Origin: an uncultured Algoriphagus sp.
GTDB lineage: Bacteria > Bacteroidota > Bacteroidia > Cytophagales > Cyclobacteriaceae
NCBI GenBank assembly: GCA_903952135.1
Contig: CAJBER010000026.1
Span: forward strand, 1 to 39,300
DNA length: 39,300 nucleotides
Direction of reading: 5' to 3'
The notes beneath the pieces were generated by a model. That model was not told the DNA's origin. It ran no database searches and saw only the letters and a program-made list of their open reading frames with translations. How positions within the stretch are numbered: position 1 is the first letter of the stretch; each line of letters opens with the position of its first letter. A program made the position numbers and the translations under genes. This document shows positions 16,175 to 18,766 of the stretch, piece by piece.

Positions 16175-16744
16175 ATGGTACAACTCAGCCTTTCCCAATC
16201 CACTGCAGACCTAGAGGGGATTTTAGCCCTCCAACTCGAAAATCTATCTACCAGACTTTCACAGGAAGAGAAAAACGAACAAGGATTTGTAACGATTCAG
16301 CACAACCTAGAGCAATTGCAGGCCATGCATGCAATCGCCCCCCATGTGCTTGCGAAGGAGAATGATCAGGTGGTAGGTTATGTATTGGCGATGACTTTGG
16401 CTTCTCGAGAGCTGGTTCCTTTGTTGATTCCACTTTTTGAAAATTTTGACCAATCCGAAATTGGTGGCAAAAAAGTAACTGATTACAATCCCATGTCCAT
16501 AGGTCAAGTATGTGTGGGCAAATCTCAGCGTGGAACAGGATTGTTTGACAAACTGTATACCGCGTATCGGGAGCAGTATGCTGCTAACTATGATTTTGCG
16601 ATTACTTCCGTTGCCTTAAGCAATTATCGGTCTTTGGCAGCCCATCAACGGATAGGATTTAAAATCCTACATACTTTTCAGGATAGCTTGAATCCTTGGG
16701 CGGTTGTGTGTTGGGACTGGAATAATCGATTTTCATTGCCCTAA
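16175..16744 (+). CDS. GNAT-family N-acetyltransferase
   Basis: 189-residue cytosolic protein with the GNAT fold. The central strand VVGYVLAMTLAS leads to the acetyl-CoA-binding motif A, IGQVCVGKSQRGTGLFDKLY, whose Q-R-G-T-G-L is the pyrophosphate-binding loop. Motif B follows as FAITSVALSNYRSLAAHQRIGFKILHTF. The N-terminal helix region (DLEGILALQLENLSTRLSQEEK) is typical of small Bacteroidota GNAT proteins. The acceptor substrate cannot be predicted. It stands alone on the + strand, divergent from the TMEM220-like gene. A small CCTCT/AGAGG hairpin without a T-run lies at 16773-16784. Confidence 0.85.
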   Translation: MVQLSLSQSTADLEGILALQLENLSTRLSQEEKNEQGFVTIQHNLEQLQAMHAIAPHVLAKENDQVVGYVLAMTLASRELVPLLIPLFENFDQSEIGGKKVTDYNPMSIGQVCVGKSQRGTGLFDKLYTAYREQYAANYDFAITSVALSNYRSLAAHQRIGFKILHTFQDSLNPWAVVCWDWNNRFSLP

Positions 16745-16787
16745 AAAATTATTCGAACCCAAATTCTGTACTCCTCTAAAGAGGGCT

Positions 16788-16830
16788 AAAAACAGAAACG
16801 GGAAGCATTTCTTGCGAAAGCTTCCCGTTT
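16788..16830 (-). terminator. Strong intrinsic terminator, minus strand
   Basis: AAACGGGAAGC (16796-16806) and GCTTCCCGTTT (16820-16830) form a perfect 11-bp stem. Inside it TTTC/GAAA add four more pairs around a TTGC loop. Read on the minus strand it is followed by CTGTTTTTAG, a U-rich tail. No protein gene lies upstream of it on that strand for more than 800 bp, which implies that something else is transcribed into it. Confidence 0.7.
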
Positions 16831-17400
16831 GGTCGACAGATCCCCGTGGTTCACTGACTCCCTCAAGCTACAGTTAATGACTTTTCCCAGTTACCCAGGT
16901 CCAAATCGTCGAATGAAGCCGCCCTTACGGACTTGTCCTGTTTTGTTAGATTTCCATTCCATTTCTGTGGTTACCCCTTTCAAACACTTGTAGGCAAGTG
17001 TTCCTTCATGGCGGAACTCCCGAAGCTATCTTGACGATAGGCTCCCAGGCCGATCTAGTAGCACTTCTGCGGTTGCCCGTTGCAAACCACCCCAATTAAG
17101 GGACAGTTCCTTTGTGCCCGATGTTTGTACAAACTTTCCCGAAAGAAAATCTGTGCTGATTAATCCGTTTTTTGCAATTCTGGGGTTGCCCCTCTCAATC
17201 AAAAAATTTCTTTCTTGATCCTTCTTGCCTGGAACTTTGATTCTTTCCGAAGAAATCCTCAAATTCAAGCCCATCGTTTTTTGGCATTTCTGCAGTTTCC
17301 TGTCTCAGAGACTTACCCTAAGGTAGGCCCCCCTTTGTGCCCGATCTCAAACTTTCAAACTACGATCCGAAATCTTACTTTCGGTCTTTTTTTCTCTTAC
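16788..17400 (-). ncRNA. Candidate large structured non-coding RNA
   Basis: About 600 nt without a credible protein gene, more GC-rich than its AT-rich flank and full of hairpins. On the minus strand: CCGAAA/TTTCGG near 17366-17383, a CAG-GAAA-CTG tetraloop, a TTTC-TTCG-GAAA stem with the stable UUCG loop, GGGG-CAA-CCCC (about 17182-17192), CTATC/GATAG (about 17026-17040), and AACACTTG/CAAGTGTT with a 4-nt loop (16983-17002). A motif GGGnAACCnCAGAAnTG recurs four times, at about 17284-17300, 17174-17192, 17061-17079 and 16959-16977. A 14-nt ATCGGGCACAAAGG occurs twice, 223 nt apart (17332-17345, 17109-17122). It ends in a strong terminator. I looked for RNase P, tmRNA and SRP RNA signatures and found none. 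The 5' end is a guess. Confidence 0.45.
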
Positions 17401-17420
17401 ATGATGAATTAAAGTTGGCC

Positions 17421-17530
17421 TTTAAAAAAAATAAATCCAATTAATTCTTCAAAAATTTATCCACAATTTTTACCACGAAATTGCCTGTAAACGAACAAGT
17501 TATCCACCTATTTTTGGGGAATTATCCACC
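17421..17530. other. DnaA-box cluster with AT-rich tract, candidate origin or DnaA locus
   Basis: Three same-facing boxes lie within 74 bp: TTATCCACA (17457-17465, a perfect DnaA box), TTATCCACC (17500-17508) and TTATCCACC (17522-17530). Start-to-start distances are 43 and 22 bp, close to four and two helical turns, so they would lie on one face of the DNA. Directly left of the first box, 17421-17460 is 36/40 A+T and could unwind. These are bacterial origin hallmarks. Against this, dnaA is absent and genes on both sides are mostly transcribed toward the site, unlike most origins. A DnaA-titrating or DnaA-reactivating locus, or DnaA control of the adjacent RNA, are alternatives. Confidence 0.4.
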
Positions 17531-17675
17531 GAAATACTGGATTAGAACCGCTAACCCCCTGCAGATACTTATTTCCTTCCTCCTATTTGTCTTGAAGCCG
17601 ATTTAAACTAATCGAACCTTGGTACCCAAATCGATTCAATTACCTTAATCCTAATCCAATCTTAAAAATTAAGGA
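17531..17675. other. AT-rich spacer, no gene seen
   Basis: This stretch lies between the DnaA boxes and the terminator of the propeller gene. I see no open frame with coding character, no further full DnaA box on either strand and no clear promoter. It contains only simple runs such as CCTTAATCCTAATCC. Confidence 0.5.
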
Positions 17676-17706
17676 TAAAAAAAAGGAGCAATCTTTCGAA
17701 TGCTCC
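17676..17706 (-). terminator. Intrinsic terminator of the NHL propeller gene
   Basis: GGAGCA (17685-17690) and TGCTCC (17701-17706) form a 6-bp stem. On the minus strand it is followed by eight T (17677-17684). It begins about 20 bp after the stop codon of the minus-strand gene. Confidence 0.8.
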
Positions 17707-17725
17707 CCTCTTTGTTATTGAAAAC

Positions 17726-18766
17726 TCAAACCCGGGTCAACTTGATCGGATACGATTTCCCAGCATTCCACTGGCACACGTAGATATTCTCATCCTGGTC
17801 AATGCAAACATCGTGGCAATGCTGAAAAACAGGTTCGTCCTGCAGCATAACTTGCAAGATGCCCTCTCGGTAATAGGGTTCTGTACCACCAGGGTTAGAA
17901 ACCACCCGATTGTCTTTATTTAAAATGGTCACAAAACCCGAATTATCCGTTTGCTCCAAGTATCGCAGTCTTGACCAGCATACCCCTGCATACAGATTTT
18001 CTCCACGAATCACAGGCCGACAAACATAGGCCCCTGGCAGAAAAATCGTTTCCAGATAGTTGCCATCCATCGTAAATCGCTTAAATGAATTATGCCCCCT
18101 AGAGGTGCAAATCAAGGTAGGTTCGCCACCCGCTCGCTGATCCACAGCAATTCCATGCGCAGTACTAAACTGCCCATCTTGATTTCCTGCTCCTCCAAAT
18201 TTCCGAATAAAGGTTCCTTTGCTATCGTACTGTAAAAAAAACTGGGAACCATAACCATCTGCCACATACAAGTCCCCATTGGGAGCCACAGTTGTTTCGG
18301 TAGGCACCCAGCGCATTTTTTCGCTATAAATCCCCTCAGTTACCGGTGAAGCAATTTCAGCAACTACTTTCCCATCCAGGGTTGTTTTGAGCACTCTACC
18401 CCCATTGTCTACTATCCACAGGTATTCGGCATCCCCCTCATCCACTAAGCTCAAGCCATGGGCAGCAGGGAGTCCCAGGGTCCAGGTATCGAGTAACTTC
18501 CCCGATTGGCTGTAAATGATCACATTATTCTTGGGTTCGTCCGTCAATAGAATCATTCGCCCCTTTCGATCCATCACCATCTCGTGACAGTTGACCACCG
18601 GTACTTTGGCAGGATCTAGATTTCCCCAATTGGGATCTAAGGTATACTTGAACTCCCCATGGCCCAGCACTTTTTTCTGGGAGGCAAGTAGGGATAAATT
18701 GGGTTGTACAGTCATAGCCAAACCTATAATGCTCGTGTTTTGTATAAATCTTCTTCGTGAATGCAT
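17726..18766 (-). CDS. Tat-exported NHL-repeat / six-bladed propeller protein
   Basis: 346-residue protein with a twin-arginine leader: SRRRFI at residues 3-8, then a hydrophobic stretch through LAMTVQPNLSLLA. It is therefore probably exported folded through Tat, perhaps with a bound cofactor or metal. The mature part has NHL-type propeller repeats: HEMVMDRKGRMILLTD, AHGLSLVDEGDAEYLWIVD, ETTVAPNGDLYVADGYGS, AHGIAVD and HCHDVCIDQDENIYVCQWN. Recurring His-rich repeat starts suggest metal-binding or catalytic positions, as in the lyase domain of peptidyl-amidating enzymes, but no enzymatic role is established. A terminator follows. The divergent LVIVD gene begins 217 bp away. A near-match to a -7 box (TCACTTTG, 18784-18791) lies 18 bp before its start. 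Confidence 0.85.
   Translation of the reverse strand: MHSRRRFIQNTSIIGLAMTVQPNLSLLASQKKVLGHGEFKYTLDPNWGNLDPAKVPVVNCHEMVMDRKGRMILLTDEPKNNVIIYSQSGKLLDTWTLGLPAAHGLSLVDEGDAEYLWIVDNGGRVLKTTLDGKVVAEIASPVTEGIYSEKMRWVPTETTVAPNGDLYVADGYGSQFFLQYDSKGTFIRKFGGAGNQDGQFSTAHGIAVDQRAGGEPTLICTSRGHNSFKRFTMDGNYLETIFLPGAYVCRPVIRGENLYAGVCWSRLRYLEQTDNSGFVTILNKDNRVVSNPGGTEPYYREGILQVMLQDEPVFQHCHDVCIDQDENIYVCQWNAGKSYPIKLTRV

Follow-up and report, generated by a model that had tools for sequence, protein, structure and literature searches.

Locus and boundaries

The stretch of DNA analysed, called the window below, is 39,300 nucleotides long and belongs to an uncultured Algoriphagus sp. Between a minus-strand NHL-repeat gene (17726-18766), which lies upstream, and a convergent GNAT gene (16175-16744), which lies downstream, it holds a block conserved in relatives and flanked by a promoter-like element and a terminator hairpin. 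The parts of this block and of its upstream region are as follows.

17457..17530, minus strand: upstream conserved region with three DnaA-box-like sites
17457-17465, plus strand: DnaA-box-like site 1, exact TTATCCACA
17500-17508 and 17522-17530: DnaA-box-like sites 2 and 3, one mismatch each
17410..17440, minus strand: promoter-like element, composed of TTGG (17440-17437), 19 nt and CAACTTTA (17417-17410)
16788..17404, minus strand: structured RNA of about 617 nt
17399..17404, minus strand: 5' arm of the closing end helix, UCAUGU (UCAAGU in most relatives)
17283..17342, minus strand: module A, a three-way junction of P1, P2 and P3
17174..17231, minus strand: module B
17061..17119, minus strand: module C
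16959..17013, minus strand: module D
16863..16868, minus strand: 3' arm of the closing end helix, GCUUGA
16824..16907, minus strand: 3' domain (model R3), with the hairpin CUGGGUAACUGG, the segment AACUGUAGCUUGA and the next stem-loop
16788..16830, minus strand: terminator hairpin with 14-nt arms, followed by CUGUUUUU
U-run at 16788, minus strand: 3' end of the RNA

The 5' end of the RNA would lie near 17404, as placed from the promoter-like element, and the closing end helix of the window genome carries one mismatch. The minus-strand terminator described in the original prediction is present, its arms (16796-16809 and 16817-16830) being 93% complementary. A simple scan of 16700-17800, whose rules cover neither a loop such as that of this hairpin nor promoters of the Bacteroidetes type, listed no minus-strand terminator and no sigma-70 promoter. 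The sole match of the scan was a plus-strand terminator-like hairpin at 17367-17384, which is the RNA's first hairpin read from the opposite strand. Another terminator-like hairpin, absent from the list of the scan, was seen by eye after the NHL gene, near 17677-17706.

The repeated module

The 17-nt motif first noticed at this locus occurs four times on the minus strand, at 16960, 17062 and 17175 without mismatch and at 17285 with two mismatches, the copies being 110, 113 and 102 nt apart; the accompanying 14-nt element is found at 17109 and 17332, at a distance of 223 nt. When up to three mismatches are allowed, the motif is present eight times in the window against 4.05 expected, and 4 of 100 shuffles reach eight. 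The repeat claim is therefore carried by clustering and conservation rather than by this count. The proposed arrangement of two modules of about 223 nt, each with two sub-modules, was only partly upheld: similarity is much the same among units A, C and D (0.60-0.61) and lower for B (0.50-0.57), and the consensus fold places A to C within one helix and D within another.

The fourfold motif represents the 3' half of a module of 55-60 nt which forms a three-way junction. Its elements follow in the order P1 (about 4 bp), RAAG, hairpin P2 of variable length, GARA, P3 (3 bp) and CAGAA. The P3 loop is GNAA in 49 of 74 modules and GNRA in 52 of 74, and the unpaired AAG, GARA and CAGAA are invariant or nearly so. 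The module model was built from 74 of 103 distinct modules. Among the 29 excluded, 27 were near-copies (similarity at least 0.89 to one that was kept), and the other two were the B modules of loci L021 and L070 (0.61 and 0.64), which do not fit the module; profile R1, derived from the module, finds no more than three modules in the RNAs of these two loci. In the window R1 recovers all four copies, which bears out the repeat-built character proposed for the RNA. A pseudoknot of CUGUAG with a CUACGG loop looked plausible by eye and was rejected, as natural variants break it.

Of the 13 pairs of the module, 12 show change on both sides among the 74 copies; the paired cells amount to 96.2%, and 218 double-change cells were counted against 65.6 in shuffles. 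The module pairs of the long form were also transferred to 30 one-module RNAs (24 from other genera and 6 from Algoriphagus), drawn from 40 short RNAs; the ten left out of this alignment include forms without a module. In the transferred structure 87.8% of the cells were paired (79.2% for P1 alone), with 58 double-change cells against 16.8 in shuffles. The weaker measure of this test was the number of further pair types, which was reached by 35 of 500 shuffles.

Fold, covariation and strand

An alignment over the whole RNA was made from 28 sequences, the window and its homologs from the Algoriphagus clade, one of them truncated at the 3' end. The consensus is a closed, many-branched fold with 134 pairs in 28 helices, in which 96.2% of 3,726 cells pair; as the structure was derived from the same alignment that was used to score it, this figure is biased in its favour. 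Changes on both sides were found for 75 of the 134 pairs, and the covariation check proposed for homologs yielded 502 double-change cells against a shuffle mean of 148.8. Sliding the partners by one base lowered the pairing from 96.2% to 46.5-50%. The consensus contains 591 G-U cells against 35 A-C cells, an excess which assigns the RNA to the minus strand.

A phylogeny-aware test, the null of which keeps the tree and the change counts of branches and sites and so has little power for a single pair, gave no pair with E below 0.05 in the long form and one in the short form. Four long-form pairs had E below 1, one of them lying outside the structure. Taken together, the 50 strongest covarying pairs of the long form comprised 13 in the structure and 16 that were at least 90% paired (null mean 5.9, maximum 13 in 60 simulations); the same measures for the short form were 11 and 7 (null mean 2.4, maximum 5). 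Folding of the single sequence gave z-scores of -1.20 for the minus and -1.75 for the plus strand (20 shuffles each). These values are weak, and the case is therefore made by the comparison of relatives.

The conserved ends of the RNA pair with each other, YCAAGY with GCUUGR. Pairing extends over all six positions in 11 of 11 class-level copies and in 7 of 7 copies from a family of small genomes. At the outer position pairing was found in 36 of 38 short Cyclobacteriaceae RNAs (38 of 40 had the 3' element by the search expression used) and in 24 of 28 long rows; four of the long rows begin one base late and are misregistered in this count. The outer pairs are UA, CG, AU and UG and the inner pairs UG, UA and CG. 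Four variants of the small-genome family are perfectly complementary: UCAAGC/GCUUGA, CUAAAC/GUUUAG, UCAAAC/GUUUGA and CUGAAC/GUUCAG. Among 11 copies of this family the 5' search expression missed four, three of which were read when these variants were compared. The end helix is followed on its inner side by two strands of very high conservation, GAGAGAUAAAAG and AUAAUAACUGUA, and the body between them is variable, with 0, 1, 2 or 4 modules. The compensating end helices, together with the excess of covariation, the loss of pairing on the register slide and the strand polarity, bear out the view that this is a structured RNA.

Protein genes and known RNA families

The only sizeable open reading frame of the region, of 82 amino acids (17026-17274, minus strand), is intact in 1 of the 28 sequences, that of the window itself. 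Its variable columns number 69, 66 and 68 at codon positions 1, 2 and 3 (83 columns each), so that no bias is seen, and a Pfam search gave no hit for it. A few relatives contain other, unshared frames of up to 163 amino acids, on either strand. The statement that no credible protein gene is present thus stands.

A comparison with the 4227 models of Rfam 15 gave no match in the window at the gathering threshold; ten weak matches appeared up to E 10, the best with E 0.063. At curated thresholds the RNA was also without a match in five long-form and eight distant loci, only three tRNAs were found in 20 loci from other genera, and in five Algoriphagus short-form loci, searched up to E 1, there was one chance-like hit below its own threshold. 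The exclusion of the housekeeping RNAs held as well: RNase P RNA has its canonical match elsewhere in 7 of 7 genomes, the window contains no tRNA or tmRNA, and no SRP model of Rfam matches in it. Thus the conclusion first drawn from the sequence, of a structured, repeat-built RNA outside Rfam 15 at curated thresholds, was sustained. Among the matches listed in the open-access literature, no such RNA is described for Algoriphagus, Cyclobacteriaceae or Cytophagales.

Distribution and module number in Algoriphagus

BLAST of the region against 58 genomes, including its own, gave matches in 27, of which 25 were counted. The matches in G013 and in contig C6 of G042 were false, being loci without the RNA, and G042 has the RNA elsewhere. 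A scan of 84,980 species, with one genome each, for a 27-base pattern from the 5' part gave 32 matching stretches, and 31 of these were labelled as Algoriphagus, Cyclobacteriaceae, Cytophagales, Bacteroidetes or Spirosoma fluviale metagenome-assembled genomes. The remaining stretch (L065), from another phylum, was rejected as a chance match without the motif.

Three models were built, R1 for the module, R2 for the 5' domain and R3 for the 3' domain. R3 matched 53 of 72 Algoriphagus genomes; the 3' domain was undetected in 19 of 72, including 12 of the 50 more complete ones, which suggests that the RNA is dispensable or diverging. The distance from the 5' to the 3' domain in 47 Algoriphagus loci (46 genomes) falls into three classes with none between them: 253-270 nt (15 loci), 358-362 nt (3 loci) and 569-583 nt (29 loci). 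These classes fit one, two and four modules, in agreement with the module hits where loci were read. In a subclade of the long class no module B is recognisable, and the three modules found by R1 in L021 and L070 imply that in some of the 29 long spans three modules can be recognised.

The genes around the long form follow the order ThuA-like, NIPSNAP, TMEM220, GNAT, RNA, NHL, ispG, which L054 and L069 keep in full or almost in full. The one-module forms of four genomes (G017, G028, G360 and G398) adjoin TMEM220 and NIPSNAP, and that of G398 also GNAT. Since four- and one-module forms stand beside the same genes, modules were probably gained or lost in place. Module likeness across genomes (0.66-0.77) exceeds that among modules of the same RNA (0.50-0.61), and the expansion of modules is therefore old.

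Two Algoriphagus genomes with the long form also contain copies of about 216 nt, measured to the end of the 3' domain, which have the same ends and no module hit (L183 in G390 and L184 in G025); in G390 two such module-less copies lie 437 nt apart.

Relatives in Bacteroidia

The search for homologs in Cyclobacteriaceae, suggested with the original prediction, showed R2 matches in 76 of 390 genomes of the family, from 15 of 84 genera. The copies from other genera mostly have a single module and measure about 255-270 nt up to the terminator. They are often paired or placed around a gene cluster and their neighbourhoods vary; some lie near ThuA-like genes (L133, L134, L171) or ispG (L143), as in Algoriphagus. 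Across genera the RNA is conserved independently of any one neighbour gene. The presence of several copies per genome at varied neighbourhoods fits a trans-acting RNA rather than a cis element.

At L133, L134, L135 and L152 a single gene lies between two copies of the RNA; the genes so enclosed include, as judged by eye, a 454-amino-acid protein with a signal-peptide-like start and a peroxiredoxin-like protein. Four further loci (L137, L138, L139 and L182) contain a second short type, which lacks the GNAA module and shares a GGTAATGCTGAAATTC segment, and three of them adjoin gene clusters that look catabolic by eye.

Within the order, R3 matched 43 of 390 genomes, nine of them from another Cytophagales family with genomes of 1.2-1.6 Mb. 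Copies from six of these nine gave no module hit at E below 0.5; they have about 195 nt before the terminator, and one of them folds with a z-score of -4.16. At the class level R3 matched 9 of 395 genomes, four of which belong to Algoriphagus, and in all five non-Algoriphagus loci a hairpin and a T-run come after the 3' element. The exact 5' pattern CAAGYRAGRGATAAAAG was found at 17 sites in 15 of 395 class-level genomes, against one for the reversed control. At 12 of the 17 sites, one of them from Algoriphagus, the 3' element lies 201-540 nt downstream and is followed by a hairpin and a T-run; the other five had no 3' partner by the search expression used. Copies with matching ends thus occur in a few more families of the class; beyond the order either the RNA family is patchy or the search models are too narrow.

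Five loci from one family (L208-L211 and L217) have 467-540 nt between the conserved ends, which is perhaps an independent enlargement of the body.

As to scope, the family is wider than first supposed: what had been missed were the relatives with 0, 1 or 2 modules and the range past Cyclobacteriaceae.

Upstream region

PMC9723704 gives the Bacteroidetes -7 box as TAnnTTTG. The promoter-like element resembles this box and is aligned in 33 long-form sequences, two of which come from the same genome. Exact TAnnTTTG is present in 16 of 40 short-form upstream regions, and the promoter-like element also occurs in class-level copies; the RNA is presumably transcribed from it.

The sequence TTWTNCACA is found in 43 of 73 upstream regions, a density of 6.0 per kb, compared with 0.26 per kb when 40 whole loci are counted. 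Upstream of the RNA, all 29 occurrences of TGTGGATAA have the same orientation; they stand for one conserved element and not for 29 independent events, since the upstream sequences are related. These oriented DnaA-box-like sites adjoin the promoter-like element and recur in Cyclobacteriaceae copies; in some copies of the small-genome family the site takes the form TGTTGATAA. Over the whole window the DnaA box is not enriched (11 seen, 10.07 expected), and the sites are unusual only by their place upstream of the RNA. A replication origin, suggested by the three sites, was rejected from the GC skew of G033, a relative assembled in one contig: its sign changes near 0.7 and 2.4 Mb (20 sampled pieces), and the RNA lies at 3.46 Mb.

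Interpretation and alternatives

The minus-strand RNA most probably represents a new family of standalone structured RNA with its own promoter-like element and terminator hairpin, a reading to which we assign a probability of about 95%. As regards its function, a trans-acting, multivalent ribonucleoprotein scaffold or sponge is put forward tentatively, with somewhat less than an even chance of being right. The end domain would provide a common platform for binding or stability and each module would offer one binding site for the same presumed partner, most likely a protein; the four-module form would bind more of it per transcript and might act by titration. This function is preferred because the bases left unpaired at the junctions are conserved more than any other part of the module, because the number of modules varies in a fixed frame, and because no gene is consistently linked to the RNA across genera. 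The existence of module-less copies implies that the module is not the core function, and the retention of the end domain where the module is absent implies that this domain carries a shared, older function.

A regulator of RNA polymerase of the 6S type, in which the conserved strands inside the closing helix would form a promoter-mimicking bubble holding the sigma-A polymerase, is unlikely, though some features speak for it. Like 6S and 6S-Flavo RNA, the present RNA is standalone, its short forms (about 195-270 nt before the terminator) are similar in size, and a large conserved internal loop adjoins the closing helix. Moreover, the Rfam 6S model (RF00013) was unmatched in 7 of 7 genomes, though it matched 5 of 14 controls, and 6S-Flavo (RF01685) was unmatched in 18 of 18 genomes. 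In a larger set 6S-Flavo matched 3 of 73 genomes, none over the cut-off; none of the three was among the 21 genomes bearing the RNA and all were among the 52 others. As the control genomes for 6S-Flavo remained unmatched, its absence carries little weight. However, 6S RNA is laid out as a long rod with two stems around the bubble, whereas here a closing helix of 6 bp is followed by one of 3 bp, and such a rod is missing. The branched fold, the several copies per genome and the lack of a match to RF00013 set the RNA further apart from 6S, and two 6S-Flavo-like loci bore no resemblance to it by eye.

Self-assembly into an ordered RNA particle, as for OLE, ROOL and GOLLD, is equally improbable; in such a particle the GNAA loops of the modules would dock within one molecule or from one molecule to another. 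The size, the ornate fold and the repeated P3 loops would suit it, and with those RNAs the present one shares a large, many-branched bacterial structure with a job that is unknown or partly known. In PMC12286853 three large ornate RNAs are described as forming homo-oligomers, OLE, ROOL and GOLLD are counted among the families included in Rfam, and GOLLD is encoded by phages and prophages. Against a particle stand the 22 of 74 module loops that are not GNRA and the small size of the one-module form. Unlike GOLLD, the RNA lies between chromosomal genes; the phage and plasmid records searched contained no match to the long form, and the exact module pattern was absent from the viral contigs scanned. 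It also differs from OLE, ROOL and GOLLD in giving no Rfam match to these families, in the window or in five long-form loci, in being built of counted copies of one module and in having small members.

A little less probable still is a regulatory RNA acting by base pairing, with the purine-rich 5' strand GUGAGAGAUAAAAG as the seed for target mRNAs. This strand is strongly conserved in all groups read and is unpaired in the consensus, but the fold is long and closed, and the opposite strand AUAAUAACUGUA is strongly conserved too, so that the two look like one structured internal loop. It is quite improbable that the RNA is a non-autonomous mobile repeat which is merely transcribed: paired copies separated by about 0.3-8 kb and enclosing varied genes might suggest it, and against it are the one recurrent locus in the genus, the compensatory changes, the conserved upstream element and terminator, the lack of any phage or plasmid match and the single BLAST copy in the window genome, which is 89.9% complete. 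The readings as a small or decayed protein gene, or as RNase P RNA, tmRNA or SRP RNA in divergent form, can practically be dismissed, because the 82-amino-acid frame and the unshared longer ones of a few relatives are outweighed by the intactness of the former in a single sequence, without codon-position bias or Pfam hit, and by the canonical RNase P RNA elsewhere and the absence of tmRNA from the window.

Relation to known systems and significance

The RNAs of the CsrB/RsmZ type carry several copies of one protein-binding hairpin, the number of which varies between species, and sequester the protein. The proposed scaffold or sponge resembles them in having a repeated unit in one standalone RNA, here with four modules; where those RNAs have a GGA loop, the present unit forms a three-way junction in which about a dozen unpaired bases are fixed. 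Tandem riboswitches also contain repeated aptamer folds, to which the modules are similar, but in the present case a terminator ends the RNA, the next gene in the window is convergent and no gene in cis is apparent.

One may go further, at rather long odds, and imagine a conserved end clamp that presents an exchangeable body across several Bacteroidia families; in Algoriphagus this body would have been changed in place, with one, two or four binding modules, and in Cyclobacteriaceae the DnaA-box-like array at the promoter would tie a protein-sequestering RNA to the replication cycle.

The novelty lies in this particular RNA family; orphan structured RNAs in general are of an already known kind. 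The RNA may have a bearing on a sequestering or 6S-like RNA in Cytophagales, a group in which the few genomes tested gave no match to the Rfam 6S models. Unnamed large conserved bacterial RNAs are uncommon, and the known ones have opened new lines of work. The counted, evolving modules at one locus, together with the short natural variants, make the role of the module directly testable in culturable Algoriphagus.
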